Assembly (NCBI GenBank): GCA_000310025.1
Contig: FN648707.1
Location: 1,117,793 to 1,172,971, forward strand
From: Ectocarpus siliculosus
Lineage: Eukaryota; Sar; Phaeophyceae; Ectocarpales; Ectocarpaceae
Reading direction: 5' to 3'
Length of the DNA: 55,179 nt
Below, piece by piece: positions 1 to 27,150 of this stretch. Position numbers and translations under genes: made by a program. A model generated the notes under the pieces. It had not been told where the DNA came from. It saw only the letters and a list, made by a program, of their open reading frames with translations, and did no database searches. Each line of letters starts with the position of its first letter. Positions within the stretch are counted from its first letter, which is position 1.

Positions 1-420
1 AGGCCCTTGGCCGCGCACGTAGTACCCGAGCTTGTCCCACCGGAGGACCGCCGGTCGAGCGGGACGCCGCCGCCCTCCCTCGCCGCCGCCGCCGCCGCCG
101 CCGTTGGCGGCGCTACTACTAGAACGGCGCGGCCGCTCACGACCCAGCAATGGTTCCGAGAGATTTTGGTCGTCCCACTCCCCGCCACCGTCCCGCTGCT
201 GCTGGAGTAGCTCCGCGGTCTCACTTGCGCTTCTGCTGGTGATGCCATCTTCTTCTTGATCGAGAGCAGGGGTCTGTTCGAGCAGAGGGGTCCCGTAGAC
301 TCGCTTCGCCCGCGACGCGGCTCGTCCCTTGGCCGTCGCCGCCGTGCCCGGGTCGGAGACCATGGCAAACAGCACGAAGCTCATCACCAACAGCCCGGCC
401 AGAGAAACCAGTATAGCCAT
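1..420 (-). CDS. Transmembrane and linker exon of the ABCG gene, open at the window edge
   Basis: The acceptor TCTCTCTTGCAG is followed by an open frame to base 1. A ~20-residue hydrophobic helix comes first, then a basic patch (KGRAASRAKR), an acidic stretch (LDQEEDG), LLQQQRDGGGEWDDQNLSEP, a poly-Gly run from a CGG/GCC microsatellite at about 80-105, and finally LRWDKLGYYV at the expected start of the ABC domain. The topology is extracellular EGF region, one TM helix, then the cytosolic ATPase. The Walker A and later motifs must lie outside the window, so assignment to ABCG rests on Adp1-like architecture and this short strand. Confidence 0.65.
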   Translation of the reverse strand, partial: MAILVSLAGLLVMSFVLFAMVSDPGTAATAKGRAASRAKRVYGTPLLEQTPALDQEEDGITSRSASETAELLQQQRDGGGEWDDQNLSEPLLGRERPRRSSSSAANGGGGGGGEGGRRRPARPAVLRWDKLGYYVRGQGP

Positions 421-3400
421 CTGCAAGAGAGAGCGGGGGAGGGGGGGGTGTACTCATGTACTCATAGTCGTGCATGTCGTAGTCGTTAGACCATTGACCT
501 CGTATCCCTACAAAGCCGGGACGGAGCACGCCGGGTTCTCACCGGACCAGGCTCCAGGAGGGGGGGGGGGGGAGATAAGACAGATTATTGTACCAAGCGA
601 AATCAGTGTCGCCAATCTGGCAAGAGACAGGAGGATAAGTAAGGTAGATGCAGTACGCAAAATCAGTACCAGAAACAGATCCTTCGACAACCGCTCTCAG
701 AAGGACGGATCTACTTTAACTTCGACGGACCATGTGAGTCTAGACACATCAACAACCCCTTGTGAGCTCCACGAGCACAAATCATCGTTCTACACGGCAT
801 GGCCAAGACAACAGCTAACCTGCACTCCGATGGACCAGGAAACAGCCTTCGCCTTCGACCCAGACGGCTGCACCGGCGCCCCGCCCTGCGAATGGGAAGC
901 GCGGAATCGATCATGGCGAACGGGTACTTCGTCGGACACGTACAACACACGCTTCCCCAAGAGCCACTGTAGTGTGTGGATGCTCAAGAGGACTGCGGGG
1001 GGCCCACAGAACATACCGGCATCGTTCCGACAGGCACCCGACCAGCTCACATGGCCGACACAAAACAGATCGGCAAACACACACCAAAGCAGCACACCCT
1101 ACACATGTTAAAAAAAAGCACGCCCAAGTCTTGTGCCACAACGATTGTCTACTTTTCTCGGCCAGCTCGACCAGTTCAGGCCCAAATAATGTCCGCACCT
1201 GGTACAGGCAGGACCCAACGGAGCAGGTCATCGATAGCGGCGCGAACCCTCCCGGCTGCTGGTAGTAGCACACGTATGACCCGTTCACCTGAAGCGTTAC
1301 GAAGAATTCCACGGTTGTAGCGTGTTGGACTAGACCCAACGACGTGGGTTGGATTGTGCGCGGCAGCACAAGCGAGGGGCATTCTTCGATTGACAAGCGC
1401 CGCCGGATTCGGCAACACTTGTTGCTATTCTCACGTTGCTGCTGGCAAAAAACATCTCTGCCCACATGCATGTATGCATAGGCCAAGCGGGGCCATTCAC
1501 CAGCGGAAGGAAGCACCCAAAGGCAGGGAGGCACGGACGTCCCAGTGCAGAGCAGGGGGTCGCGGGGGGGGCGTGTGGTTCTTACCAGGATACCATCATC
1601 ATCGTGGCATTTTGCCGGTGTTTGGAAATTTGAAGAGAACGAGATAGAGGGCGATGGGGTACGTGCGGTTTGAAGAAAAACGGCAGTCAACCCAAGGGAC
1701 GGTGGGGTAGACTGCTGGTTGCAGGCCGACCTCAACATCCCACAATGTGTTGAGAAACGTCCAGACTCCTTCGTCTTTGTGACCACACGGGTGGGACAAC
1801 TCACACTGTCAATACACTACCCCGCACTGGATATCATGGTAGAGAAAAAACATACACACCAATCGCATCTACAAAAAATAATGAAATACCAAATTCGCAT
1901 GAGGAGAACACCCCACAACATACCCAACTCCATTCGGCAGCCAGGTGTCAATTCACCTTCTCTTCTTGGCAGGCGATGGTGATGGACTTCCCTCCCTCCG
2001 GCACGGCCGTGCAGGGGTGCGTCTCGTACGTCTTCCCCTTGGGGGACACGCAGTGTGGAAACCTGCGTCACGGGGACCCCGCCGGGCGGGACACGAAGGA
2101 AGGACGTCGGGCACGACAACGGGGATATTTTTTTATGATTGCTAACCGTACCTCGGCGACACAGGGAGCTCTTCTGCTGAGGCAGCGGACCGGACGCTGC
2201 CATACGTGCCGACGATGAGACACACCACCGAAAAATTCCTGCAAAGTGCTCTCCGTGTCATACCCGTGGCGTACAGTAGAACATCCACAACCTCCAACCT
2301 ACCGGAGGGGCATCCTGACTACCAAAATTCACACGTGAGACGTGCAATACACACGCACATCATGCGTTGTCCTACACCCGTAAAACAGTACAAACCACAC
2401 CCTGTATGCCTCACCCCAAACTACCGATTGGCAAACCTTGCAATCGCTCGTGTCTTTTGGGCCTTAGGCCTCGCTAACTTCCTAACCTTCGGTTGGCTTT
2501 CGTCTCCAACCTTCGAAATTGCTCATACCCCATGCGCCTCAACCCTAGTACCCTTCACCAAATAGAACCCACGCCTTGGGTCTCCCCCCCTAAAACTGCT
2601 AGGTCTCACCCGTCACACATAGGGTACTCCTCGGGAGGACAGAGTCCCTCCGTGTCGCCGCACTCGAAATTCACGCAATCGCGCTCCCCCACATCCGTCC
2701 CGCCGATGGGGAAGCACTTGTCGCGGTAAACCTGCGATAAACGGGGCAATGAAAAACACGGGAAACCCATGGGAAAACCCGCGTCACGGGCACAACGAAC
2801 TCAAAACATGATTGCAAAACGCCCACAAGAACAACCACGCCGCAAACAGGGCGTTCAACGAGCTTAAGCCATGATTGCAATCCATCCTAAAAAAACACAT
2901 ACACAACAAAGAGGGCGCAAGGAAGTGAAACATGATTGCAATCCGCCGCCCTCGTGGCGGGAAGGCACTAGGCACATGTCACCACAAGACCTCCTGCAAA
3001 CGAATTTAAAACTATCTGCCACGCAGACCGCAGTAGGCCTTCGCAAGGACATCAAGCTTGGTTTAAGTAGGGTTAAGCGGTACGGTTAGGATACTAAGCC
3101 CCGCCCTCTACTTCACACGCGAACAACAACATCCTGGTGAAGTCGGTCCAGTAGGCCAAAGCTTCATGTCACCTTGCAGGGGCCGGCCGAGCCGTCGAAG
3201 ATCTTGGGGTAGTGGTACTTGTACTGGCCAGGCCATTTCTCCTCCGTCCTGGCGTGAATGCCGGCGAACTCTGCGGCAACCATCGAAGAAAGCACAAGCA
3301 CAAGAGGTAAAGAAGGAGGCCCCAACAGGTTGTGCCAGCAGACACATACCATAGCCTTTAGAAGCATTTGTTGATTCAACCTCACTGAGACTGACGTACC

Positions 3401-6264
3401 GTAAATGTCAAAGAGATGGCACCCCCGTCTTCGCGCGTTTTTTACGGCGTATTTCCCCACAACCAGGCAGGAGGTACTACAGCCGAAAAGGGTGGTTCTG
3501 GAAACATCTCGTCGAGGACTTCCCTGAGAGGTATCGGTTGGTGCTCGCACCTTCCTAGTTTTGAAGAAATACGCTACAAACTCTTACACGGGGGGTGCTA
3601 TCTCTCCGACTCTTACGGTATTTCCATTGTCAGCCGGTTACCGCGGTCGATGCCAACAAAAATACCCCAACACGAGCACACAGGCATGAGAGAGAGGTGA
3701 AGATTGGCTACCGTCGTACAATTCGCCCCGATGGGGGATCCTCGAACTTTTTCAGCGCCGGCAGAAGCTTCCAAATTCATTTGTTCAGAGGCGGAGCTAG
3801 CGAGGGTACTCAACACCATGGCGTCTCCCTTGTACGAAGAGGTAGCTTGGCTATGAACGTGGCTAACACAAAATGATATCGCCGAGCAGTTAGCAAGACG
3901 ATGATGAAGACAGCCAACAACATTGGAGGGATTTCAATGAAAATCGACTCGCTTCTTCTGACCTGCCTTCGACTCCTGACAGAGAGGCAAAGCAGCAGCA
4001 GCTTAATAGTTTGGGCACCGCAGTCAAGCAGTGCTCTTCGCTCTCAAGCACCGATGACGAAACGACAACTCCACCGCCACCCCCAACTACAAAACCACAA
4101 ACCCGACACACCAACAGGGCCACCAGAGCTCCCACCTTCACTACTACAATGGTAACCTATCCCTCAGCACTAACACGGCAGCGGCATCATATCATGACGC
4201 CTCCACCAACACCAACAGAAAAAATAAATGGTACCTTTTAGGACCACGAAGGCCGGGTCCTCCTCCGTACCCCCCCCCGTCACCGCCCACTGTATCCACG
4301 TGTCCGGCTGCTGATCGCACAGGAAGTCGGTCCAGCCGTCCTCCCCTCCGCCGCAGGAGCACGAGAATATCTTCCCGGCCTCCGATCGAGCTTCCTCCTC
4401 GGTAAGAAGGAGAGTGTTGGCGCTGCAGTTCGTCGCTGCCGCAGCCTGGATAGTCTCGATCACAGGGTGAATACACGGTATGAATGGTTCGTTACCCCGT
4501 TTGTAAGAGTGGTTATTCTAGGCTGCTGGGTATTTCGGGCGGCTTCGTGGCTGGTGGTGGGGGGGGTACTCATGAAAACGCATGCCGTAGTGGTGAGACC
4601 GTTGAGCTCGCAACCCTACATATGACGGAGCGAATGTGTCGCGTTTTCACCGGCCCAGGTTACGTTTCACAAAAGGATGAAGCTGAAGCTGGTAGTCGTC
4701 GTTGTTGGGTTTGATGTACCAAACAATTAACACCATGTGGGTATTCTTTCAAACCCTGGTCCGTGACCCGTGGAAAAAGATTATTCATTCTCGGCTCTGG
4801 ATAGTACGGGTGGCTTCGTGGCTGGGAGGCACGCAGGGTCGGGGGGGTGGCGGGGGGGGCGTCATGCTGCTGGGGTTGTCGAGAACAGAGACAGCATCAG
4901 GTCAGGTCTTCCTCGTGCAACGGGCCCGACGTACATGAGCCCGACGTCTTCAGCATATAGATATACGACTCCTGCTAAGCCCCCCGGTGTCGATGCTCCT
5001 TGCAGCTACTACCTGTTAACACGTTGTCTCAACGAAACATTAAACATCAACGCAGGGTACACGTATGTCAACAGCAGTACAAGGGCTCCTCCGGCTGGTT
5101 CGTGTTCCCCCCCCAAAAAAATAACCGCGAGTGCGTGCTCACCTGCCCGTCGACCGTGCTGCTCGGGCACACAGAGACATCAAGGCAGCGCCCGCAATCT
5201 ACGCCCGCCCACCCGTCCTCGCACAGGCAGTGCGCGCAGCTCAGGTCGGTATGGTTTCCGGTTCCCCAGTACAGGGTAGAATTCCCAAGGCAGGTGGGGT
5301 CCCCGTAGTCATACGCGTTTGTGCAAGCTGAGCGTCGGTTTGGGTGCGGGGAGGGGGCGGGGAAGAGAGTCAGGCACACTGCTGTACGCGTATCCACAAC
5401 CCAAAGCGGTGGTAACATTGTGGCAGTGCCAACATCCCCCCTGGATGTATGTAGGTGCCTGGAGCAAGTAAGGCCGCGTTCGAGTGCATGTGTTACTCGA
5501 ACGTACAACACGATTGTTCCCCTTCGCCTGCTATTCGAAGTGCTGCTGCGAGTACTACCGTATGTGGTACACGTCCGCGCACGCACTCCCTGCATACGAC
5601 ACTGACGTGAAACAAACAAAGAACTAAACAACCCCAACCCCACCGCATCTTGGCTGCGCACACCAGAGTGCAAAATTATTTGTAGACGCTGATCTCGCGG
5701 GTCTCCTACTATCGAGGGCGCAGTCAGTTGCCAGTCTAGTTTTCAAAGGCAGCAGCTTTGATACATCAGCCGGCACGATTGCATCGCAGTAGTGACGGCC
5801 GGAGAACCCCTGCCCGCCACAAGTGCATGTGGGAACACTGCGCTACCGCTGTGATCATGTTTGACAACCCGGTACACCGCCCGAGTTTCTGCATACCGTA
5901 CGTACATAACGACCACCCTGCGGTGGGACTCCTCGTCTTTCGTTACGGATAGGTGGGGTCTAGGGTGCTTGCAGCAAGAACAACAGCATTGCCTCTCGCG
6001 AGCCACAAAAGAAGGTCGATCCCCGCACACACATCGTAGCCCCTCTCTATGCTAGCTGCTGGCTACATGTTGAACCGCTGCTGTGTCAGGGTGTGTCAAA
6101 AATGTGTCATTTGTAGCAAAGACAAATACGCCGCAAGTGTACGCCAACAGCAGCAGCAGTGCCTTGTTGGATAAATCAACCTGTACTGCGGACACTAACG
6201 CTACCCATGACAACCAGCAGCCAACATAATACCCCACAAATAAACGACGGCCACCGACGTCCAT
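1..6264 (-). CDS. Adp1-like ABCG transporter, 5' part (EGF-like ectodomain, TM helix, start of ABC domain); partial
   Basis: Minus-strand multi-exon gene whose 3' end lies outside the window. Exons inferred: signal-peptide exon from ATG 6264 (end uncertain, about 6181), 5327-5143, 4445-4235, 3270-3173, 2731-2610, 2062-1957, 1288-1199, 885-820 and 420-1. From 5327 onward every GT/AG junction is in codon phase. Exon 5327-5143 carries an EGF-like motif (CLCEDGWAGVDCGRC). Later exons are Cys-rich (SCSCGG, FECGDTEGLC, CVSPKGKTYETHPC, VCYY..SMTCSVGSC). The last exon opens with a membrane helix (MAILVSLAGLLVMSFVLFAM), then an acidic/Ser-rich linker with poly-Gly encoded by a GCC run, and ends in VLRWDKLGYYVRGQG, which resembles the strand that opens an ABCG nucleotide-binding domain. 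This order matches yeast Adp1, an ABCG transporter with a lumenal EGF domain; substrate unknown. The first exon does not join in phase with 5327, so a small exon may be missing. A decayed inverted copy lies at 23637-26935. Confidence 0.75.
450..556 (+). repeat. tRNA-like SINE head in ABCG intron
   Basis: It follows a G-rich run and reads GTACTCATAGTCGTGCATG, GTCGTTAGACCATTGACC, CAAAGCCGGGACGGAGCACG, CCGGGTTCTCACCGG, the reverse complement of the head at 18860-18965 and 29240-29335. Confidence 0.65.
4566..4680 (+). repeat. Diverged tRNA-like SINE head in ABCG intron
   Basis: It follows a run of G and reads GTACTCATGAAAACGCATGC, CGTAGTGGTGAGACCGTTGA, then GACGGAGCGAATG and TTTTCACCGGCCCAGG. 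It is more diverged than the copy at 450 and absent from the inverted duplicate. Confidence 0.5.
5143..5327 (-). CDS. EGF-like exon of the Adp1-like ABCG gene
   Basis: 185-nt exon, entered in phase 1 and left in phase 0, between a pyrimidine-rich acceptor (CTCAG) and a GTGAGC donor. It encodes eight Cys, including C-x-C-x5-G-x2-C spacing typical of the C-terminal half of an EGF module (CLCEDGWAGVDC), followed by GRCLDVSVCPSS. This is the most diagnostic exon for the Adp1-type ectodomain. The duplicate at 24505 onward carries a 2-nt insertion and a 6-nt deletion that leaves TGA at 24578-24580. Confidence 0.75.
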
Positions 6265-6700
6265 GATGGCTGATGGTGGGCGGCGCGCGAGACAGGTTGA
6301 TGAGCACGCGAAAGACACGCACGCGCGGACAACAAAATATATAATGGGGGGCGAACTCTGTCGAACCTTGACGGAGAGAAGGACCAGAGCTCCGGTTTCG
6401 CACGTCAGCTCCAACAACAGAAGTCAGTACCAGTATCGCTCCCCACACGACACCGCACATCCGCGCTTTGCCTCGGCAGCCCCACATTCATCAGTGAACA
6501 CGCAGCAGGTGCGACACTGCTTGTTGTTGTCAAACAAGGTGCAATTAGCGGCGACGCGACTAGGAATTTTGGGGTACCCATGCTCAATATCCGAGATCCG
6601 AGACCTCCGTGTGTTTAAGCAGACAGCACAGTTGCACCGCACCCGCTCCCGCTGGGCAACCCTTCTCAATTGCACGGCACCACTGCCAACACTAGCACCT
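6265..6700. promoter_or_regulatory. Shared upstream region of divergent ABCG and MSS51-like genes
   Basis: 436 bp separate the putative start codons of the minus-strand ABCG gene (6264) and the plus-strand MSS51-like gene (6701), so promoters must lie here or in 5' UTR. Part of it, 6265 to about 6556, is duplicated in inverted orientation at about 23637-23992, which is where the duplicated segment starts. No TATA box or specific factor site was identified with confidence. Confidence 0.35.
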
Positions 6701-8218
6701 ATGGCACCAGCGGGAATTCTGTTACGGCGAGGCAGCGGATGCTGCTGCAGCAGTGCCGCGAGGAGTGTTGTCTCCTCTATGCGGGCATATTCCACTCTGG
6801 AGCTGCCCGAAGCAAGGAAGCAAGGCGAAGAGAACAAAGCCTGGGCCAAGACGCCGGGCGCGCGACAGGTCCTTGATCAACCACCGTTCGAAGGGGAGGA
6901 CGGTGATATAGGTGCAGCTCGGGCTTCGGCGTGCATGCTGGAATCTCTCGAGGGTTATCTTCAGGTTCGCGATAACGCCTGCTGCCCTCGCAGGGGTTAA
7001 TACAGTTTGTTTTAGCCCTTTTCGCTCGTTTGCAAGTTTGAACTTTTGAATCGGAAGCCCCCGCATGCCGCATGAGGATCGCATCGGTTTCGCAGTTTTC
7101 ATCCCAAGGCAGATACACAAACCTTCTGCTCGCAAGTATTGTAGAACGTATGCGTAGGATTCTTGATCGACGTGCAAGCCGATGCGTCGGGAGGTACTAA
7201 GGCGTCCGGTGTGGATGTAGGCTAAACCTTGCAAGGGCTAAACTGCACCTCTCCCCCCCCCACCATCGATCAGGCTCGTCGATGGCCTTACCGCGAAGAA
7301 CCTGCTCGGCGATTCCTCTCGCACCTCCTCACCTACCCTCTCACGCTAGCGGCCGGTTTGCGGGAAGCCCGGATAAAGCAGCAGCCCGAGTATACCAACA
7401 GCGACGGCCGTCGTAACAAGCTCGCCGTTGTCTGCTTGGGCGCCCGGGCCGAGAGCACGATGCCCCCGGCGTACTGGCGGGAGGCACTCTTCGCCCTCCC
7501 GGACGTCTCTCGCCTTTCCCTTCATCTCATCGGCCCGGAGCTAGGCCTTCCCCCCGGCGTTGTTGCGGCAGCGCGACCGGGGACAGCGGCCTGCGACGGA
7601 GCGGGCACGATTGGCCCTATCTCGACTGCTGTTATCTCTGTAGGTGCAAGGACGGCTGATATTGCGTGGACTCGAGCCATGGTGGGCTCAAGCGCCGGCG
7701 GGTGCGTCACGGGAGCAGAGCAGAAGCCAGAGGCGGCGGCGGGTTCAGCTGTGGGCTCTGGAAGAGGTGCTGCCACAGAACCGGGGGGGGCGGGGGCAGT
7801 AGAGGCTGCAGAGGAAGCCGTAGAAGCGGCCGACGCGTTCGTTCTTTTCAACCCAGGCCTTGGGCACCCGCACCTCCGGCAAGGGTGGGACGGGGCGCTG
7901 AAACGCCTTCTCGCTACCGGAAAACCGATAGTCGTTTCGTGTCACAGCCCGAAGGACCTGGATAGAGACACGCGTCTGCTGCGCGAGGCGGGGGCGGAGC
8001 CGTGCTGCCCCCCCAGCGCCGCAAACGCCTCGGCGGGGGAAGGGAACGGCAACCGGGGGAACGGTTTGGGTGCGAAAGAAAACCCCTTCCGTAGCTTGAT
8101 GGCGTCGGAGGACCCGCTCTCGGTGCCGGGGGATGAAGATCTCGTGTGGTGCAACTGGGGGATGATGGTTGTACGAGGGGCAGGGGATGCAAGAACAAAG
8201 GGCAGGGTAGCCTTGTAG
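6701..8218 (+). CDS. Mitochondrial MSS51 C-terminal-domain-like protein
   Basis: Two-exon model: 6701-6964 (88 codons, donor CAG/GTTCGC) and 7274-8218 (acceptor GATCAG), in phase, about 402 aa. The N-terminus looks like a mitochondrial presequence: MAPAGILLRRGSGCC, then SSMRAYST, an R-x-Y-S/T cleavage-like site. Exon 2 matches the pattern of the conserved C-terminal region of MSS51/ZMYND15/ZMYND17 proteins: FLSHLLTYPLTLA, then LAVVCLGARAEST, W.EALFALP, LSLHLIGPELGLPPGV, then FVLFNPGLGHPHLRQGW and GKPIVVSCHSPKDLDRD, ending near NPFRSL. No MYND zinc finger is visible before it. An Ala/Gly/Glu-rich insert (7690-7820) separates two conserved blocks. Its role (mitochondrial translation or assembly) is inferred from family only. 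The donor is non-canonical beyond GT, so exon 1 is less certain than exon 2. AATAAA at 8463-8468 could be a poly(A) signal. Confidence 0.7.
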
Positions 8219-8576
8219 CGGTGTCGTCAGCTTTCTGTCCCTCTCAGAGAACACGTTGCCCACCACCCGAGGGTAGGATCAAAGGTGGTTCTCGACGGTT
8301 GTGTGCGAGACGAAGAAGAGCCGATAACGTGGCACATAGGTATGGGGGATTTTAACGGCCGCTAAGGCAAACCATCCGTACCGCCGGAAGGGTTCCATGA
8401 TCTTCATGCAACTTGGCACTCGTAATTGAGAAGGGGAAGGAGGTCCCGTATCTTTCTAAGCCAATAAAATATGCTGTGAAAACCGCGGTAACGATTCACT
8501 TCTTCATTGTTTATTTTTTTTTAGCTTTTCCATTGCAATGCTGACTGTCCATTTCCAACAAGCTACCACGCTGCCG

Positions 8577-9369
8577 ATGTTTTCTACACTCAACTTGTGT
8601 CTCGCTGTAGCACTGGCCCTTCTTGCAGGCGCACCTGCTATCGCCCGCGAAAACATCAACAATCCGAACGCCTCGTGCGGCGAACAAATCGGCATCATAT
8701 ATTGACCCGGCAGACCGTGCACGAAAAATTCTCCTGCTGGTCCTCTACCTCTACATGCCATACATGCCATGCATGCCACAGGTTCCATCCTTTGCTCCAC
8801 TACTCCCTAGCGACTGTCGTGAGGGGGGGGAAGGCAAGAATGTCGTGCAGCGTACCCAACCTCTGTAAGGTATGCAAATGAAAATATCGGCACATCTCTC
8901 GCGAGGGGATCCCTGAATTGAACACCCTGTGGGCACTGTTCGTCAACCAGTGCAAGAAATCCAATCCAAGAAGTCACACGATACTCAAAAACAGAGTGGG
9001 TAAAGACAGAAAGCTGAGTGAACGGGGGCGCCGAGTGATTGGCGGAATCGTGGGCTGATTCGTGTTCAATTCGACGGCGTGCTCCCTTGCGGAAAAGCCA
9101 TCGCGAAGCGCGTCTCGCGGCACGCTTTACGAATACTGTACTGTATACGCTCACACCGCGTTAAGCAAAATAGCGAATCAAGACTGCGTGTCTCTTTCTT
9201 TCCCGAATATTCGGATCCCGAACGAGCACATGGATATTGAAATACGAAACGCGCAAGGACTCGAACGCAGTGCAAGTGCCTGGTGGACTACGATTACGCC
9301 TACATGGGCGCCAACGGTCACCCGGATGACAAGAAAATCCGCGACACGAAAACAAACAGCAACCAATAA
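8577..9369 (+). CDS. Small secreted Cys-containing protein (three short exons)
   Basis: Hand-built model with consistent phases: 8577-8674 (or from in-frame ATG 8538), 8782-8869 and 9271-9369, about 94 aa. Exon 1 is a clear signal peptide (MFSTLNLCLAVALALLAGAP, then AIA before RE). Exon 2 runs from a CCACAG acceptor to a strong AAG/GTATGC donor and ends CSVPNLCK. Exon 3 starts CKCLVDYDYAYMGANGHPDD and stops at TAA 9367-9369. The C-x-C and aromatic/Gly pattern at the exon 2/3 junction loosely resembles the end of an EGF module. Individual exons are short and could be chance; in-phase splicing and the signal peptide are the support. It lies tail-to-tail with the DDHD lipase gene. Function unknown. 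Confidence 0.4.
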
Positions 9370-9641
9370 TTTCTTCGTTCATATGCATGTTTGTGCTTCG
9401 GCAGCAACCAAAACCCAGCACCGTCGACTACACAAGGAGACCCCTCCCTGTGCCCCCAGCCCCGCTCTTTTCGCCTTGCCCCCCTCGCAAAATCGTACAA
9501 CACTGCATACCGGTACTCACACGACAACGCGGGATATCGTCACACTCACAACACGAGAGAAACTGGAAAATATGGCGTCTTTGGGGAAAGAGGGGGTCAC
9601 CGTTCCCGGTTAAGCTAGAAATATATACAACACTCCTAACG

Positions 9642-9944
9642 TCACGCGACCAACTCCAGTACTTTCGTCTCCTCTCTCGTTGATCCCTCTTCCTTCTCCT
9701 CTTCTGCCTTTGAACCCTCGTCTGTTTTTCTCCCCTCCTCACTCTCCTTGGAGTCTCCTTCTTCTTCTCCCTCCCCCTCCAGGCCCTCGTTGAGCCGGTT
9801 GACGAGGAACATCACCATGTCGAAATTGGTGAAGTAGCTGCTGTGGGCGAACACCGCGCTAGCCCAGGGGTGCATCCCCTCCAGGGTGGACTCCTGGATC
9901 ACCCAGTCAATCCGTTCGTCAAGCTCGTCCTCGGCATCGGTGAC
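9642..9944 (-). CDS. C-terminal exon of the DDHD phospholipase
   Basis: 303-nt terminal exon ending at a TAA. It encodes ERIDWVIQES, then AHSSYFTNFDMVMFLVNRLN, the C-terminal D, H and D positions of the DDHD signature, followed by an acidic Glu/Lys-rich tail. The acceptor is inferred at CCCGAAG/GTC; a small exon between 11390 and 9944 cannot be excluded. Confidence 0.75.
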   Translation of the reverse strand, partial: VTDAEDELDERIDWVIQESTLEGMHPWASAVFAHSSYFTNFDMVMFLVNRLNEGLEGEGEEEGDSKESEEGRKTDEGSKAEEEKEEGSTREETKVLELVA

Positions 9945-15900: not shown

Positions 15901-18900
15901 CTGCCCGAAAGCAACGCCCAAAGGAAAGAAAAAGTAAATCAAGCGGCTTTGAACAAGGCTTGCCCGGACACTGTGGGAACCACCATATCCGGTGTCCCAA
16001 AAAATGCGGAGAATGGTAGTAGTTTTCGGAACAAACTATAATATGCGATGGAACCGAGCACAGTTCGCCGGAACGACCCGTGACAAGAGCAGCATCGCGA
16101 GCATTGAAACCGTGCATCGGCGTGTTCTGCATAATGCCCTTCAAGTCAGAAGTCTGTGATGTACAGCAGCAAATGGCTTGCACCTCGATGCCTCTTAGAA
16201 TGTTGACATGAAACGTGCCATCTGACTCGTGCTCTTGGCCCCGCTTGCAAACCGCTTCGTCTAGTGAGGAACATCAGCCCCCCCTACCCGCCACGTCTCT
16301 TGCACCGCCTGCCTTCGCTTTCGTGAAAGTGAAATCGGTGTTGGCTTTGACAACACCGAGCTCAGCACAGCGTTCGGTACACCGGCCTGCAGCCTAAATC
16401 AACCAAAAGACTACAAAAGACACCGGCCTGCAGCCTAAATCAACCAAAAGACTACTATGCCGCGCCCCTTTTTCTCAGATTTGTCAACACCCTCCCTGCC
16501 TATCTTCCACTCTACCTGATGAAACCACTCCACCGGCAAAAACTCCACGTATCCCCCGCTCTCCTCGTCCCCATCGTTGTCCCCCTCCTCGCTGTCTTTC
16601 GACCCAACCCCCTCCCCCTTTGCCTCGCACCCTCCCCCCGCTTTCGTGACAAAGCATTTCGCGTCGTCTTCCTTTGCTTCCACTACCGTCGTGTCGTCCT
16701 TTTCGGCAGCGGCTGTAGATTCGGCGGCAGCGGCGGCGGCGGCGGCGGCGGCCGCCTCTTCCAACTTTGAGGCCTTCTTAAGGTCCCTCAGGAGCTCCGC
16801 AGACATGTCCCGCATCGGCCCCATGCTCGCCCGCAAGCTGGCCATCGCGCTCGACTTCCTGGACCACTGAGAAAAAAAAAAGGGAGAGACAACCAGGGGA
16901 GGGGTACGAAGCAATACGCGTGAACGTAGAGATACCCGAGGCATCAATATCCCTGCAAAACCAGTTTAGCTTCACGGGCAAGGCAGGCAGGCAAGTAGGT
17001 AGGCGGCGCATCGCCTAGCGCCATGGGATGGCTGCACGTGAGTCCCCGCACGAGAATGGCGTGCGTTCCAAGGACGAGGGTGGCTTGTGGGCGGGCTTGT
17101 GAAACTCGTGCTGAGCGTAACTTTCGTAGTACTTGGGGGCGCTCATTTCGAAAAAACAGAGACAAAACGACGTTGCTTTGCCACGGGTGCGCGAATCTCC
17201 GGATAGCCGGAAGTGCAAGAATGTGAATACCCCATCTGACGTCACGCACACCTCAACCTGACACCGCTTCATGGAAGGGGGCACCGTGACATCGCGTAAG
17301 GAGGAGTGGGGGGATCCATGAAAAAAAGCGTAAACGGCAAGCATAACAAGACTGCAGCATTTTACACACCTACCCCTTCGTGTGTAGTTGAAAAGACCGC
17401 AACATTCGCAACAGTCATGCGCGTTGTGCAAGCACACCCGTACCGTAGCACACCTCAAAGACGACAGAGAACGTGGACTGCCACCGCACCGTCAATCGAC
17501 AGTAGCACACCTCAAAGAGGACAGACAACGTGGACTGCCACCGCACCGTCAATCGACACCACCGAGCTAGCGATGATGTCACTCACCAACGATTCGCCGA
17601 TACCGTGTATCACGAAGACGAGGTGCTTCGGGGGCTCTCCCTCGAGCGGGATGTCCCCGTCCGTCGCTGAGACGCCGCCCCAACCGCTCGCCTGCAGCCA
17701 GTCGAAAACAAATTCGGCATTTACTGCTGTCATTTGTGGTTCATTGCTTATTTATCCTAGACCCTCCTCTGAAAATAGAGATGGATTTCTTGTGTTGAAC
17801 CACAAAGAATAATAAATTGCGTCCCTTGGTTTCTCGCACGCTGTTAAGGTACATGGCGGTTTTTCCTTTCGGTGTCGTTCTTGATATCGCACGCGCGTGA
17901 GAGAAAAGTGACTTTGTCGCGGGCAACGGGGGAAGTGCTACGGGCACGTGAGGCAGGTAGATTGTGTGACTTTTGGTCTTTCTCCTCGCGTCCCACGTGC
18001 GGGATTCTCGCGAGCATGGCACAGCCAGACCAGGAACCAATCGCAGCATGCGACCATCTTGCTGTAGAGGGTGAGAGACAGAACATGAGCATAATTTACC
18101 GTTCCGAACGCACCTCTGGCGTGCCCCGTCGGACCTGAAAGGCGGTCTTGTAAATCGTGGACACCAACATCGACGGTACCTTCACCGGTCTGCCAATATC
18201 GAATGACGAACAAAAAGCCAAATGTGGCCGCAAAAACAGGCGCGCGCAGGGTCGGTGGTGTGTGACGTTCACCGCTGTACTTGAATTGGGGGCGGACTAG
18301 AGGCTGTCCGGAGCGTACCTGCATGATGCTTCGCGGTCATTGGGGCAGGGGGTGTGCAGCAGTATCAGCTGCGCAAATATTGCTGTGAATGACAAAACGA
18401 CGTACCGCACCGTGTGTCCTTTGCAACGCACANNNNNNNNNNNNNNNNNNNNNNNNNNNNNNNNNNNNNNNNNNNNNNNNNNNNNNNNNNNNNNNNNNNN
18501 NNNNNNNNNNNNNNNNNNNNNNNNNNNNNNNNNNNNNNNNNNNNNNNNNNNNNNNNNNNNNNNNNNNNNNNNNNNNNNNNNNGGTGGTCGAGTAGATCAT
18601 GTTGTGCGGGGTCGAGAACCCTCCCTCCGCGCAAGGGGGATGATCGCACCACGTTGTGTTAAAATGGTCAAGCATCCTCGAGGCAGTTACACAGTGCTAA
18701 CAACTGTCTCTGGAAGTCAAAGCACCAGAAAATAAATTAAGTCATAAGCAGCTGTCATCCGTACGCAAGGAAGTAAGCACAAGATGCCGAACACCCTTAG
18801 CAGGATGCAGCTCACCCTTCATGCGACTCGCCGAATACCTCACAGCGCTTCGCGCTTGGTGATGTGAGAGCCTGGTCCGGTGAGAACCCGGCGTGCTCCG

Positions 18901-21899
18901 TCCCGGCTTTGTAGGGATGCGAGGTCAATGGTCTAACGACTACGGCACGCACGACTATGAGTACCCCCCCTCCCCCCCCCCCCCTCTCTCTCTCTTCTCT
19001 CGACGCCTTGTCAGTGGTAATGCAGCTGGCCTGGATGCTCCATCTTCCTTATTCATGGCGCCCGATACGCACAAGAAATCTTGGCTACCCCTCTCCCCCT
19101 TCCCCCGTGACTCACTTTTGTTGCAAATCGATGTCGAAGTCCGCGAAATAGTCGTCCACGGATTCGCCCGCCTTCACCTTCGTCATCACTACCTGGTTTT
19201 GCAGGCAAGAGCAGGCCGCCGATAGTTCGCCATTACGAAGAAAGGAAGATTCACGATAAATAGTAACGCTTGTGGTGCTTGGGCTTAGGGGAGGAGGTAG
19301 GTGTTTCGCGTTACGCGCCGTATCACATGCTGAGGTGGGTGTAGGTGAGCTGCTGCTGCTGCTGCTGCTGCTGCATAGAGGTGCACAGCGATGTCGTAAC
19401 CCTGCCTCGTGATGCGCACAGCGTACGCCATCGTACGCCAACGCACCACCGTCGTTGGTCATTCAGCAAAATACGAATGTGAGGGAAACCTCACGTTGTG
19501 CGGTCTTCATTAGCGATCACAAGCCGGTTTCCACGGTACTCAACAAACTAACTGCACCCCCGACCGCACATGGGTGCACTTATTCGTACAACGCACTAAA
19601 ATACACCGGAGAAGCAAGCAGAACGGAAACGTGAACAACTTCTGCCGGCAAGTTGACAAGAGTGCGAGAGATCGACGGCAGAATGATGTCCCACGACAGT
19701 CAGGAACGCCCCGGACACGGGCAGGAAACCCTCGAACATATGTCGAGAAAAATAACAGCCCATGTACACCTAGAAAACGTGTTACAGATTCTTCACGGTC
19801 TCGCGACACGGCCACAGCACCGCTGCCGTACCCGACCTCGGGTATAATAACGGCTAGAGTGCACTCGTCCATTCTGAATGTAGTGTTATACATCCAAGGA
19901 CATAGGCAGCGCTTGGACCAATAGCGCGCCTACAGTCGTTCCTTCTGTATGAAATGTTTTACATCCGAGAACACAGGCGATGCTTGACTCAATCGTGCGT
20001 CCAATGCCATATACTCGAGAATGTGCCAGCACCTGACTCAATAGCGCACAGTCCGATACCCACACATCAGTGTGGCGGCTGTACCACGGCACTCGCTACA
20101 CTTCACGTTACCTTGTTCTCCCCATCGGAGAGGGGGATTTCAGCCTCCGAAAACGTCTTGCTCCTAAGCTGCACCTTGGCAGCGGCATAGGCATCCTGTC
20201 CATCCATCGTCGCAGCGACGACAACGAGCACATGCAACGAAAACGGGTTTGATTCACGACTGCGCCAAGGCAGAAGGAAGCCCGATTTTGAGGACGAGCT
20301 CTTTGCTGGGCAGTGGGGCGCGCGTAGTTTCCCGGCTCTGCTTGCTGGTAGTCCCCAAGTGGTCATCGTGCTTCTCAACAAAAGTGTACACCGAAGAAGT
20401 TTACAACGAACGCTTTGAACATCGACCCAGTGACCATGGACAACAACGTGGCCCGGAGCCCCTCCTCACGACATGCGGTACGGGGGGGTTCTTGAAAAAC
20501 GAAGCGGCCATGGTTGGTCGCGACGCCAGGCACCCCCGGGGTATGAGATAGACGGCAGGTCTCCATGGCCGCGAACGTGTCTCCATTTTCCAAGGTGACC
20601 TCTCAGCATGTGACGGCCAGACAAGCATAAAATGACGTTTGATTCTGTAGTCCAGGCTCGACGCCAACATAAATCGCTTCAAGCTCTTGTAGACACGGAA
20701 TACGGCCGTTAACGCAGAAGAGACCCGAGCTCCACCCGAAGGGCAATGGTAATGGCGGCGCATGTGTCAAGACGTCAGACACGGTTGCTGGTGCATCGGG
20801 ATCACTCCAGCAGCAGCAGCTCGCCACAGGAGTAGAGCCGTGGTATGTAACTTGTCGGCTTTTGTCTTTCGAATCCGAGGACTGCCAACGCTGACCGCAG
20901 CCTACGCAAAAGGCAACATGGCGAAATGCAGCCACTACCAACGCGAACACGACGTGGAAAAAAATTGCGTTCGGGTCACAAAACTTCGGCATCTACACAG
21001 GGGGGGTTGTCACCCAGAAGCTGCAACTTCCGCGGACCCCCCAACGAACCTTACGGCTGAGGGGCGGGAATGCTAGCATGGTCGGGTGTTTTAGGTACCT
21101 CCAACAGCTCCGCGTCCTTCTCGCTGAAGGGCAGCCAGCCGCTGCCCTTCTCGAGGAAGTACGTCGCGCGGATGATCGGTTTCCCGGCGGGCTTCTCGTC
21201 CCAGTACAGGGCCCTCACCGTCCGCGCCTGTTGAGGATGACAAAAAATAACACGGTCCACCGATTGCGAAAAAAAAAAACGCAGAGGAGAAGGTGTTGCA
21301 TGCAGAATGCGTCCGCGGACCGGGGACGGATACTACAAGACAGAACTCGAAAGCGTTAGAGCATGAAGAACACTATGGGTAGAGCACACCCGCCTCATGA
21401 AACAACACCATAACCACCGTATGCGCGAAACGGAGCCCGTCCTTTCGAGACCAGATGCTTGTTGCTTCGTAAGGACGACTCTCACAGTTCGCCACCGCAT
21501 AGATAGAGATGCGCGAAGAAATCAACAACGGAAAAACTGCCAGCGTCTGGCAAACGTCCAAGCAAACATTAGTGCTGGGAAGCAACCGCTGCGGGCGGCA
21601 CACAGTGTCCACTGCTGCGCCAAACCCTGCTGCTGCTTGAGGAACCGGTCCTTGGAACAGGCAGCGAGCGGCACACGAAACAGCATCAACCGGATCCTGC
21701 CGTGCAATTTGCTGCCACGCTTCGATAGATAAATAAATGTCGCGCTCCCCCGCACCTTCATATCGACGACGTATTTTCTGCCGTAGACCAAGACTTCGGC
21801 ATCCCCCCTGTGGTGGGCCTCTTCCAGCCTGGCGCAGTCGCTTGCCCACATGGTTTTCCAGTGCCCTGGAGTCTTGGGGGCCCCGTGACCTTCGGGCTC
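9642..21899 (-). CDS. DDHD-domain phospholipase A1 (SGR2/DDHD1/DDHD2/SEC23IP family)
   Basis: Fourteen exons inferred on the minus strand: 21899-21756, 21227-21099, 20195-20112, 19192-19116, 18134-18100 (tentative), 17723-17587, 16866-16516, 15900-15779, 15267-15177, 14475-14354, 13247-13118, 12557-12486, 11527-11390 and 9944-9642 (stop at 9642). All junctions keep phase; total about 645 aa. Family landmarks appear in order: W..SDCARLEEA, VLVYGRKYVVDM, IIRATYF..GWLPFSEKDAELLE, HLVFVIHGIGE, YVEFLPVEW, IMDVMYYLTP, the lipase box VMGHSLGSIIAHDIL, LLACGSPIGTFLSLR, FNLYH-LYDPVAYRLEPLL, VPHRGGDRIH, RIDWVIQES, and AHSSYFTNFD. The nucleophile Ser and the D, D, H, D residues that name the domain are all present, so activity is expected. 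It likely hydrolyses phosphatidic acid or other phospholipids at internal membranes (family knowledge). An N-terminal exon upstream of 21899 was not found. Confidence 0.85.
9969..10083 (+). repeat. Diverged tRNA-like SINE head downstream of DDHD exon
   Basis: It contains CGTTAGGCCATTGACCTCGC, CAATGCCGGGGCCGAGCGA and TTGCCGGGTTCTCGCCGAC, aligning with the other heads. It lies just upstream (minus sense) of the terminal DDHD exon, within the last intron. Confidence 0.55.
11134..11197. repeat. 32-bp tandem duplication
   Basis: CATTCGAAATACTGGAACAA followed by CCTCACTTT is repeated twice in the last large intron of the DDHD gene. Confidence 0.85.
11592..11975. repeat. Three intronic tandem repeats of about 125-135 bp
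   Basis: The units share CTTGCTGTCTGGTACAT, GCCGCTGTTGATTC-TTTGTTCAC, TACTCACGGC and GGAATGAATTTCGGTGGCAG. They lie in the DDHD-gene intron between exons 12557-12486 and 11527-11390. No coding role is apparent. Confidence 0.7.
14354..14475 (-). CDS. Catalytic GHSLGS exon of the DDHD phospholipase
   Basis: 122-nt exon beginning VSVMGHSLGSIIAHDIL and ending after GKDIPLL at a GTAACC donor. GHSLGS is the G-x-S-x-G nucleophile elbow of PA-preferring phospholipase A1 enzymes. The preceding exon ends FTPDFSGK, so the joined reading is F-SGK-VSVMGHSLGS, as in SGR2 and DDHD1. The acceptor is AAG rather than CAG. Confidence 0.85.
14581..14760. repeat. GACA/GA microsatellite
   Basis: Polypurine tract with GACAGACAGACAGACAGACA, then GAGACA and GAGAGA units and G runs, in an intron of the DDHD gene just upstream of the GHSLGS exon. 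Confidence 0.9.
16380..16455. repeat. Tandem duplication of about 42 bp
   Basis: CACCGGCCTGCAGCCTAAAT followed by CAACCAAAAGACTAC occurs twice in direct succession, in the intron after the FLPVEW exon of the DDHD gene. Confidence 0.85.
16516..16866 (-). CDS. Lipase exon with Ala/acidic low-complexity insert
   Basis: 351-nt exon with a strong pyrimidine tract at its acceptor (TTTTTTTTTCTCAG). It begins WSRKSSAMASLRASMGPMRD, continuing the HGIGESL of the preceding exon, and ends YVEFLPVEWFHQ. Between these conserved ends lies an ~70-residue insert with poly-Ala (from GCC/GCG codons near 16728-16752) and acidic or Gly-rich stretches. Such inserts between the HGIG and PVEW motifs vary in the family. 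Confidence 0.8.
17447..17560. repeat. 57-bp tandem duplication
   Basis: Two near-identical copies of AGTAGCACACCTCAAAGA... through CCGCACCGTCAATCGAC lie in the DDHD-gene intron just after the HGIGESL exon. Confidence 0.85.
18433..18582. other. Assembly gap (150 N)
   Basis: 150 undetermined bases in an intron of the DDHD gene, abutting a SINE-like repeat. A short exon or the rest of the repeat may be hidden here, so splicing between 19116 and 17723 is the least certain part of that gene. Confidence 0.99.
18583..18965 (-). repeat. SINE-like repeat, copy cut by assembly gap
   Basis: It runs from the end of the N gap (GGTGGTCGAGTAGATCATG) to GACTATGAGTACCCCCC and is almost identical to 28953-29335. 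The missing body part probably lies in the gap, which suggests the repeat itself broke the assembly. It sits in an intron of the DDHD gene. Confidence 0.7.
19350..19374. repeat. CTG microsatellite
   Basis: Eight GCT/CTG units in an intron of the DDHD gene, between exons 20195-20112 and 19192-19116. Confidence 0.9.
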
Positions 21900-21972
21900 C
21901 TGAAAACGGGGGTATATCGGGGTGGCGTTTACAGACGCACGGCAGTGGCGCTGGCAAGCCCTGCTTGCGTGT

Positions 21973-22078
21973 CCATCGATACGTGCCTCAGGCAGCAGCG
22001 CAGCAACTGCGGCGGCGCTGACTGTAGCCCTGCTGTAAGCCCATCGGCACGCGCCTCAGGCAGCAGCGCAGCAACTGC
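21973..22078. repeat. Direct repeat with 67-bp period
   Basis: Two copies of a CATCG-ACG-GCCTCAGGCAGCA stretch continuing GCGCAGCAACTGC lie upstream of the first recognised DDHD exon. Confidence 0.75.
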
Positions 22079-23636
22079 ATTGAGCGTGATGACAGCCAGG
22101 ATACGCCCCGACCAATGGAGAGGAGACTGCACAGCCCGAATGCATGCGAGCAAAGGAATTTACGAGTTTTTGACCTTCGTTCTCACAGAAGGCGGGGAAA
22201 CGAAGGATGACCACCTAACTGCTGTCTTGTCGAGCCTGTTACCCACAGGGGAGATATCGCTGTATGCTGCTACGGGAACCGTAGAAATGTAAGCTGGTCA
22301 CCGCCGTACAACACTATTAATCCATTGCTGATTTCCCACGGACTCTTATCGATGGAAGACATGGAATTGTTGTGGTCTTCGTTCTTTGTAGCTAAGAACA
22401 CAGAGCCGGACGATCGGAGAATCGTGTTGAAAGCTTGTGCAAGCGAAATCGTTGAGTGGGTGGGGGCGGGGGGGGCACGTGATGCCGCGTTTACTTTCGA
22501 TGTCTTTGCCAAGCACCTCAGTCACCGCTGATGGCAGTACTGGTATGACTCCGGCTTCCATACTAACTTGAACCGTTTCGGGTGTACGATGGTCCCACGA
22601 TAGCCCCTCAACACAGAAACGCAGTTGTGCACGTCCTTCGTCGATTGGTGCCTTGTATATAGGGCGAGATACAGCTGGTGGGGTATTTAGACACTAGTAT
22701 TATTATAATCCCCAACCGGTGGGGGATTCTACAAAATACTAGATACCCCACCGGGCAACCGGGGGTTGCATGTACAGTACACGCCGACTACTAATACCCC
22801 TGGAATATACGGTTGCCTTCGACGATACAACGCAAGACCACGGCATCTCAAGCCACCGAGCCCTTCACAGAGGGTTGTGTACCCATTCACCTTGAGGTAT
22901 CGTTCGTGCCTCATGTGCCGCTTGGGGAGAACCTACACCTCTATACGTAGGGTTTCCCCGATGCGGAACAACTTCGGCAAATGGCCTTTGTCCAGTTTCC
23001 AGCTCAACATTCAACATGCCAACACAGACAATAGTACCGCGGTAACCAAGCATCTCTCCCGAGGAATACGTGTGAATGGCAGGGAAGCCAAAACAGGACG
23101 AGAGGCGATGTCTTCAGCTATACGTGCCAAGGTTGCAGATATGTCGGCAGCAACACCGATCTACATAAGTTTAGGCTGCAAAGTTGATCGCCGCCCAGCT
23201 GTGGGCTCATCCAAAGAAGCAGCGCGTGTGTTTCCCTTCTCGCTTGTAGTACGTGAACACTCAGTTCACAGCACAAGGCCAAAGCCGCCTCAACTACTAC
23301 AGTCGAAAGCACATCAACGGAGGGGGGAGGTGCAGCAGCAACCATGGAACGGACATGTGCGCAGCGGAAGGCAAAAAAGGAACGAAATCAACGACACATC
23401 TCGCCGTTGCAAGCATCGTCTGCCAATGTCCCGATTCTTTCTTGCGCTAAATTCGCGAATTCGCACTAGATTTTTTTTTACCTGCACAAGCCATGATGGT
23501 GTTGGACTGTCTCTGGAGATAGACATCGCTCCGCAGCAGTTGGCGCTCCTGCTACAGCGAGAGAGCGTGGTCAACAGGTCAGTCACGAACCCAGTTGCAG
23601 AGTTGCAACCCAGGGGGCGACGCACGTGCAGGTGTC
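22079..23636. other. Interval between DDHD gene and inverted duplicate
   Basis: The unrecognised 5' end of the DDHD gene should lie here. Several open frames exist, including one of 292 codons on the plus strand, but none has family motifs. Short CCGTTGCA triplets (23690-23712) lie just beyond. Confidence 0.4.
22675..22756. repeat. Small foldback sequence
   Basis: GGTGGGGTATTTAGACACTA at the left pairs with AATACTAGATACCCCACC at the right, around a second inverted core CCCCAACCGGTGGGGG. It could be a tiny MITE remnant; no further copies were seen in the window. Confidence 0.5.
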
Positions 23637-26600
23637 ATTCCTAGTCGCGTCGCCGCCAATTGCGCCGCCTTTTCTGTCAACCGACCGTTGCACCGTTGCA
23701 CCGTTGCATGTGAAGTATCATTTTGCCTGTCTGCTGTTCGCTGATGTAATGATATTGGCTTGCCGAAGCCACGCCCCGGTGTGTGGTGCCGTGTGTTGAA
23801 CATTACTGCTGCTAACTTCTTTTTTTTGAGCTGAAGTGCGAAAGCGGAGCTCTGGCCCTTCTCTCCGTCAAGGTTCGACAATGAGTATTGCATATCTTGG
23901 TCATCATGTGGTTTTGTCCGGGTGTCGAGACTCGGAAGCGGTCACATTATGTTAAGTCATGATCAAACCTGTCTCACGCGCCGCCCACCGTCATGGACAT
24001 CGGTGGCCGTCGTTTGTTTTGTAGGGTTGGATGTTGGCTGCTGGTTGTCATCGATAGCGTTGGTCGCCGCAGTACAGATTGATGCATCCAACAAGGCACT
24101 GCTGCTGTTGGCGCAACATCTTGCGGCGTACCATTTGTCTACACAATATAGAAGCACATCCGGACACAGCGGTTCAATGTATCGGCGTAGTTTAGCGTAG
24201 AGGGGCTATCATGTGTGTGTGGGAGTCAGCCTTCGATCGTTGCTGGCGAGAGGCAGAACGCTAATGTGCTTGCTGTAAGCACCATAGACCCCGACTCTCC
24301 AAGACGAAATAATAGCCTCGTCAAATGACCCCTCGATTATTGAGAGGGCATTTTGATAGGGATTATACTTGTAGACAGCAACGGGCAGGAGCATGGTAAA
24401 CCAGGGCAGATGTTGGCACCACTTTGGGTTGTGGATACGCGTACAGCAGTGTGTCTGACGCGGACTCTCTTCCCCCCTCCCCCGCCGCGCTCAAACCGCC
24501 GCAGCTTGCACAAACGCGTATGTGACTACGGGGACCCCACCTGCCTAGGGAATCCTACCGCGTACTGGGGAATCCGTTGAGACTTGAGCTGCGTGTATTG
24601 CGTGTGCGAGGATGGGTGGGCGGGCATGGATTGCCGGCGCTGCCTTGACGTCTCTGTGTGCCCGAGCAGCACGGTCAATGGGCTGGTGACCACGCACTCG
24701 AGTTTAGTTTTTTTTCGGAGGGGGGGGGGTCGTGCTGTGGGAGTTGGAAAACGAAACAGCCGTAGGAAGCCTTAAACTGTTGATGTATTCCGCCGGTTGA
24801 TGATTTTTTTCGTTGGAACGCCGCGACAATCCTAACGTTCAAGGGACATCGGAACCGGGATACTTGTCGGGAGTTTTATACATCTATCCTGAAGATGCCG
24901 AGCGCATGTACATCGGGCCGTTGCACGAAGAGACTCCTGATGCAGTCTCTTTCTGGACAACCCCAACAGCACTACCCCCCCCCTCCCCCCCACCAGCCAC
25001 GAAGCCACCCGACATATCCAGAAGTACAGAATAATCCCTCTTATGAACGGGCCCACGACCCAGACTTAATATCGCATCCACCCTGCAGTCGAGACTATCA
25101 AGGCTGTTGCAGCGACGGACTGCAGCGCCAACAGTCTTCTCCCTACCGAGGAGGAAGTTCGATCGGAGGCCGGGAAGATACTCTAGTGCTCCTGCGGCGG
25201 AGGGGATGACGGGTGGACCGACTTCATGTGCCGTCAACAGCCAGACACGTGGATACAGTTGGCGGTGACGGGCGGGGGTACGGAGGAGGACCCGGCATTT
25301 GTGGTCGTAATAGGTGTTGTTATGCGTGGTTTTGCCATGCTGTTGGTGGATACTGGGGGGCGCCGTGATATGAGGCCGGTGTGGTGGTGGTGCTGAGGGA
25401 TGGGTTGTCGTTGGTACTTGGAGTAGTGTGAAGGCGGGAGCTCTCCTAAGCTTCGGGTATTGATTTTCTGGGCGTTGGTTTTGTAGTTGGAGGTGGAGGT
25501 GGAGTTGTTGTCCGTTTGGTGTCTGTACATATGTGCGACGGGTCTAACCAGAAGAAAGAGCGTCTGATTGTTTTGGTGGTGTGCCTGGCTGTCGGCACCT
25601 TCGGTACGGCAGCGTCCGGTCCGCTGCCCCGGCAGGAGAGCTCCCTGTGTCGCCGAAGCTAGGTTAGCACTCTTGAAAACATCCCTCGTCATCGTACCCT
25701 CCCCGCGGCGCAGGTTTCCATACTGCGTGTCCCCCAACGGGGAGAAGTACGAGACGCACTAATGCACGTCTACCTCGCACGGAGGAAAGCCCATCACGAT
25801 CGCCTGCCAAGAAAAGAAGGTAAATTGACACTTGACTGCCGGATTGGATGCGAATTGATTGCCGCCTCTCAGTGTTGCGTGCCTTTATTACCGCCCCCCT
25901 CCGAGCTTTGTTCATTTGTAGATATCTCATGTGGTTTATGTATTATCTGCCGTAGTATCCAGTTGCGTGTAAGCTCTGGCACCTTTGTGGTCATGAAGGC
26001 CCGAAGAACGTTGGACCTTGTTCGAACACATCGTGGGATTGATTGCAGCCCTTCTCGGTGTTGACGTCGACCTTCATCCAGCACAATCGCATGTCAAGCC
26101 ATCACCACCACCCCGGGGATAAGTTGGCGTTACTCTTAAGACCGCACGCATACCCCGCTCTCCCCTCTCCCCTCGCCCTCTATCTCGGCTCTTGGGGAAA
26201 TCGCACACCCGCGGAATGCTATGTTCGTAGTGTAGGCATACAGGCGAGTGGGTAGACATGTTACTCCATCAACAACGTGAAGACAACAGCGACAAGAAAA
26301 ACAAGTGTGGCGATGAATCTGGCGGCGAATGCCCATTGTCGCGTGAAAAATCCCCTCCGCTTGGCCCACCGCTCGCTCTTCAACCCACGTGGGCGGGTCT
26401 GGTCCCAACGCTCACACTGACCTTTCCCCGAACCCAAATATTATTTATACCTTCATCGCAATCATCCAGGTGAACGGATCCTACGTGTGCTACTACCTAC
26501 AACCGGATCATTTCGCGCCGCTATCGATGACCTGCTCCGTTGGATCCTGCCTGTACCAGGTACGGAGTTTCTTTGGGTCCGAACTGGCCGAGTTACCCGA

Positions 26601-26935
26601 GAAAAGCAGACAATCGCTGTGGCACACACTTGGGCGTGCTTTGTTTGACCTTGTGTTGTGTTGCTTTTTCCGTGTTTGTTTGCCGATCTGTATTGTGTCG
26701 GTCATGTGAGCTGACTAGCGGGTGGTGGAAACGAGGCCGGTACATTCTGTTGGCCCCCCGCAGTCCTCTTAAGTATCTAAACACGGTGGCTCTTGGGAGC
26801 GTGTGTTGTACGTGTCCGACGAACTCCCCGTGCGCCATGATCGATCCCGCGCTTCCCATTCGCGGGCGGAGCGCCGGTGTACCCGTCTGGGTCAAAGACG
26901 AAGCCCGGTTCCTAGACCATCGGAGCGCAGGTTAG
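23637..26935 (+). pseudogene. Inverted, decayed copy of the ABCG gene 5' half
   Basis: The plus strand parallels the minus-strand ABCG gene exon by exon: signal-peptide region (ATG 23993, 1-nt insertion), EGF exon (24505 on), the CSCGGG exon (about 25098-25310), the CVSPNGEKYETH exon (about 25700-25806), the VNGSYVCYY exon (26470-26559, intact) and the exon near 26865-26930. Lesions seen: a 2-nt insertion in the EGF exon, TGA 24578-24580, TAG 25184-25186, TAA 25760-25762, TAG 26913-26915, and a lost AG acceptor before the last exon (CGCAG became CGCGG). The exons equivalent to 3270-3173 and 2731-2610 are missing through a deletion. The membrane helix and ABC domain have no counterpart. It cannot encode a transporter. 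Confidence 0.8.
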
Positions 26936-27150
26936 CTTTGAAACTTGATTTGTTTCAAAACCTAGTCCCTCGGAGTGCAAGGTAGCTTTGGACGCTGATG
27001 TGTTGAAATTTATGATGACGTGGTTTGGTGGAGCTCAGGGGGTTGGCGAGGTGTTTGGGCAGGTGTTTCGACGTACCTGGTCCTTCGAAGTTCAAGTGGA
27101 TTCGTCCTTCTGAGAGCACTGTGTCGGACGATTGTTTCTGTTGTTGGCAG
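23637..27150. repeat. Right arm of inverted segmental duplication
   Basis: This is the shorter arm (about 3.5 kb), inverted relative to 660-6556. Collinearity fades after about 27125, where TCCTTCTGAGAGC is the last clear match. About 1.8 kb of left-arm sequence (roughly 4050 to 2220) is absent here. The two arms flank about 17 kb that contain the MSS51-like, small secreted and DDHD genes. Confidence 0.7.

Follow-up and report, generated by a model that had tools for sequence, protein, structure and literature searches.

Partial copies of transporter genes and inverted gene copies have been described in several organisms. In human, ABCC6P1 is termed a 5'-truncated pseudogene of ABCC6 (PMC2329642) and is described as carrying exons 1-9 with their introns (PMC2329642, PMC3434077). 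In fungi, Adp1 is reported to consist of an N-terminal EGF-repeat domain, one helix, and then the ATPase domain and further helices (PMC6647914). Insertion of an inverted copy by a template switch during replication is a described mechanism, and the same review places efficient recombination between repeats at roughly 200-500 bp of near identity, while recording events with <114 bp and <50 bp (PMC2583991). In yeast, a 24-kb flip/flop region is bounded by 4.2-kb arms of 97.6% identity, where about 53,800 mitoses and 950 meioses are reported to have brought no change (PMC9731477).

Here we describe an inverted duplication in a window of 55,179 bp, the whole stretch of Ectocarpus siliculosus DNA that was analyzed (contig FN648707.1). 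The locus is a real, ordinary partially duplicated pseudogene of a familiar kind, lying inverted relative to its parent. It is a clean case of partial duplication in inverted orientation, with introns from which its age can be gauged, and it cautions against annotating a second gene at 23.6-27.1 kb. No account of the locus was found in the titles and abstract beginnings of the literature matches listed; these searches were not aimed at the source organism and we make no claim that the locus is unpublished.

Two Inverted Arms and Their Spacer

A blastn comparison of the window with itself returned six minus-strand matches between two arms (A and B), all of them collinear, with identities of 72-84% and E-values from 1e-11 to 2e-140, which served as the control for chance similarity.

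A 670-747 with B 27140-27063, minus: blastn arm match
A 813-1291 with B 26937-26467, minus: blastn arm match
A 1932-2233 with B 25844-25571, minus: blastn arm match
A 4062-4566 with B 25511-24981, minus: blastn arm match
A 4796-5418 with B 25022-24410, minus: blastn arm match
A 5938-6509 with B 24309-23726, minus: blastn arm match

The matches ending at B 24981 and B 25022 overlap by 42 bases in arm B. The same arms also appeared, as shorter pieces, in the repeat-finder output. Alignment within the window, performed in two pieces split at a deletion of ~1.8 kb, showed arm A (6567 to ~670, minus strand) to be collinear with arm B (23637 to ~27140, plus strand), which places the inner borders at ~6567 and ~23637 and the outer borders at ~670 and ~27140.

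670..6567, minus strand: arm A, parent copy; the duplicated 5' portion of a nine-exon gene model with an open frame (blastn, alignment, model)
6568..23636, no strand: spacer separating the arms, 17,069 bp with the gap counted in (blastn, alignment)
18433..18582, no strand: assembly gap of 150 N within the spacer (alignment)
23637..27140, plus strand: arm B, inverted, truncated, non-processed pseudogene copy (blastn, alignment)
6701..8218, plus strand: MSS51-like gene, head to head with arm A, approximate span (Pfam; start by eye)

The inverted segmental duplication proposed in the initial annotation is thus supported by all six matches. Its arm coordinates were right to within about a dozen bases, and the self-comparison displayed the collinear anti-diagonal expected of such a structure. 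As also proposed there, the copy stops before the exon encoding the membrane helix (outer border ~670, helix exon 1..420), and the inner break (~6567) falls in the short interval ahead of the MSS51-like gene, between the arm A ATG at 6487 and the likely MSS51-like ATG at 6701 (by eye), which are separated by 213 bases.

Over the aligned columns the arms differ by 27% (2,401 of 3,279 identical), so arm B is neither an allele nor an assembly duplicate, an origin that we ruled out, and represents a true second copy. Since the 150-N gap lies between the arms, their distance and relative orientation depend on the scaffold join. A direct repeat of 395 bp (18583-18977 and 28952-29346, 96% identity by blastn) has its first copy adjoining this gap and may be its cause.

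The three genes that had been placed in the spacer were not confirmed. Only one of 10 chosen stop-free stretches, some of which overlap the arms, passed the Pfam cut-off, with a match to MSS51_C (PF20179, E 9.4e-22) in 7229-8215; a DUF3306 match in the same scan stayed below it (14.3 bits against a cut-off of 25). Rfam and tRNA scans of the whole window gave no matches, nor did an Rfam search of 18583-19100 at E up to 1.

Several other repeats were observed in the window. A dispersed repeat of ~100 bp, without an Rfam or tRNA match, occurs at 457-554, 4560-4659, and 9982-10067 in one orientation and at 18868-18964, 29237-29334, and 30224-30321 in the opposite one; its closest pair is 98% alike and its most diverged pairs about 73%. 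The copy at 4560-4659, in an arm A intron, is absent from arm B. In intron 2 of arm A (4485-4850), two similar stretches flank this repeat while arm B has a single one (B 24981-25022 matches both), as if a local duplication had taken place around a repeat insertion. Imperfect palindromes of ~280 bp at 13926-14206 and 42032-42312 match their reverse complements at 78% and 86%, respectively, and are perhaps foldback elements. An open frame of 1,185 codons on the minus strand (36715-40272) contains 33-bp tandem repeats at 38006-38187 and 38371-38464, as well as a Cys pattern which we take to resemble that of a putative FYVE finger.

Gene Model and Predicted Product of Arm A

The minus-strand model of arm A comprises nine exons and 473 open codons up to the left edge of the window. 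All eight acceptors are AG and all eight donors GT, with consistent phases. This is a predicted model, with exon borders chosen by eye to keep the frame, so that the open reading across the exon joins is in part a product of how it was built.

6367..6487, minus strand: exon 1, signal-peptide-like start by eye (model)
5143..5327, minus strand: exon 2, Cys-rich, EGF-like by eye (model)
4235..4445, minus strand: exon 3 (model)
3173..3270, minus strand: exon 4, without counterpart in arm B (model, blastn, alignment)
2610..2731, minus strand: exon 5, without counterpart in arm B (model, blastn, alignment)
1957..2062, minus strand: exon 6 (model)
1199..1288, minus strand: exon 7 (model)
820..885, minus strand: exon 8, acceptor lost in arm B (model, alignment)
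1..420, minus strand: exon 9, membrane helix by eye, beyond the duplication and continuing past the window edge (model)

A 22-nt candidate exon (2173-2152) was dropped, as by eye its best donor breaks the frame and skipping it preserves the frame. The introns of the model are long, and the G+C content of the window is mostly 0.5-0.6 per kb. We infer that arm A would be a working gene.

By eye, the arm A product has a Cys-rich stretch followed by a single hydrophobic helix in the last exon, and the gene exits the window before any ATP-binding domain. By analogy, an ABC transporter gene with an Adp1-like layout is plausible; the ATPase domain of this predicted transporter would lie to the left of position 1, outside the window. 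A Pfam search with the 473-residue product returned no family at E up to 1 and no EGF match. A PDB search returned 984 sequences at E up to 1, and the best 60 of the 984 (best E 0.00097) seem to be antibody chains aligned over a short stretch, which we took for chance similarity. We also scanned the whole window for ABC motifs. The three matches (42881, 43864, and 51342) were taken for chance, and none was found between the end of arm B and 42 kb by this motif scan, which would miss a decayed remnant. One scan of viral contigs found no relative.

Decay and Divergence of Arm B

Arm B retains counterparts of six of the eight copied exons and parts of seven of the eight introns. Since both exons and intron parts are matched in the six collinear inverted matches, arm B is not a retrocopy, and that origin was ruled out. 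Neither blastn nor alignment found a counterpart in arm B for the segment A 2233-4062 (~1.8 kb), which includes exons 4 and 5.

25512..25570, plus strand: site in arm B of the ~1.8-kb loss, A 2233-4062 (blastn, alignment)

Six codons of arm B are stops in the frame of arm A, two in exon 1 and one each in exons 2, 3, 6, and 8. Exon 2 carries a 2-nt insertion, which shifts the frame, and a 6-nt in-frame deletion; its stop sits after the insertion and is a stop in the frame of arm A only. The acceptor of exon 8 has changed from CAG to CG and is lost. The start-codon region of arm B was not reliably aligned and we make no claim on its decay. With parental introns retained in part and disabling changes set against the 473 open codons of the arm A model, arm B is, on its sequence, a truncated, non-processed pseudogene.

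The contrast between an open arm and a pseudogene had been recognized in the initial annotation, together with the lost splice acceptor and the ~1.8-kb deletion, and our alignment recovered all of these. Of the four in-frame stops and the several frameshifts described there, the stops are indeed present, numbering six in the frame of arm A, a difference that depends on the exon model. Only one frameshift (2 nt) was found within exons, the other exon indel being the in-frame deletion of 6 nt.

Exons are 85.5% identical between the arms (661 of 773 aligned bases), against 70.1% for the intron parts and 5' flank (1,709 of 2,437). Over aligned columns, intron identity is 67-84% in six introns and 56% in one (1956-1289 of arm A, 336/598), while the eighth lies wholly inside the deletion; the first two introns have 442 and 307 bases of arm A missing from arm B. 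Aligning the arms and counting substitutions, as had been proposed earlier, gave the six stops mentioned above, a dS of 0.229 and a dN of 0.142, for a dN/dS of 0.62 (bootstrap 0.40-0.94; 254 of 258 whole codons, six exons).

If arm B was always free and arm A constrained, a dN/dS of at least 0.5 is expected. With a value of 0.62, arm B need never have worked, and the ratio suggests that it probably died when it arose or soon after. In this analysis, arm B as a whole gave no clear sign of selection. In exon 7 taken alone the ratio was low (0.077/0.349, 30 codons), which would be compatible with arm B having functioned for a short time. The neutral yardstick is imperfect, since dS (0.229) is below six of the seven intron distances (0.233-0.658), the seventh being 0.185. 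The intron between exons 7 and 8 (1198-886) stands out by its similarity to arm B (84%; 255/305 against 1,063/1,454 in five others, p 8e-5), in a test for which the intron was chosen after looking and the very divergent intron (336/598) was left out; old gene conversion or local constraint may in part account for this likeness. CpG changes (36 against 43, with 140 shared) did not distinguish the two arms.

Origin of the Inverted Copy

Taken together, we consider it very likely that arm B is a non-processed, 3'-truncated pseudogene derived from one DNA-level inverted partial duplication of the arm A gene. The duplicated segment would extend from ~80 bp ahead of the parental start codon into the intron that precedes the exon for the membrane helix. 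Arm B would have received hardly any upstream sequence and no exon beyond exon 8, and would probably have been dead from birth and drifting since. We infer that a single event made it, either replication template switching, as described in PMC2583991, or the repair of staggered breaks. The latter leaves the stretch between the breaks at both ends, inverted, and is one of two routes under this best explanation. Taken further, it would mean that staggered double-strand breaks once led to inversion of the spacer and that the arms are the trace of this event, with the inversion as their cause, which is possible and, in our judgment, unlikely. The geometry fits, since both ends of the spacer carry an inverted copy, with the reservation that a scaffold gap lies between them, and the mechanism is known in Drosophila, where a gene and parts of its flanks are described as duplicated at a breakpoint (PMC4965816). 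However, one genome cannot separate such an inversion from a template-switch insertion, and the surviving gene would retain only ~80 bp of its former upstream sequence. It is distinctly doubtful that the inverted half-gene is the scar of a flip of ~17 kb that gave the surviving gene the MSS51-like gene as its new upstream neighbour and left the former upstream sequence of that gene next to the dead copy. Were the staggered-break origin shown, the locus would add one more case of this mechanism and of upstream-region exchange; otherwise, general understanding is unchanged.

Our preferred reading, a single inverted partial duplication, was also weighed against explanations in which the position, the carrier or the role of arm B differs. 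The 150 N between the arms and the 395-bp repeat abutting this gap (96% alike to 28952-29346) would allow for a scaffold artefact, with arm B a real sequence wrongly placed and oriented relative to arm A. This doubt is limited to the join, as the 27% difference between the arms excludes an allele or assembly duplicate, and we find the artefact very improbable. Capture of the gene fragment by a transposable element that then inserted at B is very improbable: several dispersed repeats were detected in the region by blastn, but no convincing terminal repeats surround arm B. Among 23 pairs of 14-40 nt listed over 7.5 kb, a single inverted pair was noted as enclosing it (22947-22964/27196-27213, 18 nt, 83%), and the flanks of this pair show no target-site duplication by eye. 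That arm B is transcribed and regulates its parent gene, acting as a decoy or giving rise to small RNAs, has a precedent in human ABCC6P1, reported to be co-expressed with ABCC6 and to lower ABCC6 mRNA when knocked down (PMC2329642). Precedent is all that speaks for such a role, which appears highly improbable for a copy that carries only ~80 bp of upstream region, shares no identical run above 32 bp with its parent and is without a clear sign of selection as a whole.

The initial annotation had also suggested that the arms could support inversion of the spacer. They are indeed inverted and kilobases long, but no long near-identical stretch was found: the longest identical runs are 32, 32, 27, and 26 bp, and the best 100-column window (step 50) reaches 93% identity. 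These runs compare with the roughly 200-500 bp of near identity reported for efficient recombination (PMC2583991), and the far more similar arms of the yeast flip/flop region still had no reported change of orientation (PMC9731477). Present-day inversion by recombination between the arms was thus rejected, their identity being too low, and it is extremely improbable that they actively mediate repeated inversion of the spacer.

Comparison with Known Duplicated Genes

Like human ABCC6P1 and ABCC6P2, described as shortened pseudogenes that share a chromosome with their ABC transporter parent and keep its 5' exons (PMC2329642, PMC3434077), arm B is a partial copy retaining 5' exons. The human copies are reported to be >98% alike to their parent, megabases away, transcribed, and variable in copy number (PMC2329642, PMC3434077), whereas arm B has 85.5% exon identity, lies 17 kb away, is inverted and decayed, and has a parent that is only a putative ABC gene. 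The likeness of arm A to the Adp1-type ABCG half transporters of fungi lies in its Cys-rich stretch followed by one helix (by eye); unlike them, its ATPase domain and main membrane domains would fall beyond the window edge, and its product has no Pfam match. The flip/flop region of Saccharomyces chromosome XIV likewise has inverted arms about 20 kb apart (24 kb in yeast), but the yeast arms are 4.2 kb long, 97.6% identical, and homogenized (PMC9731477), whereas those described here have diverged and one is broken. Finally, the staggered-break inversions of Drosophila also leave copies of one gene region at the inversion breakpoints, with the difference that for Drosophila the uninverted arrangement is known (PMC4965816).
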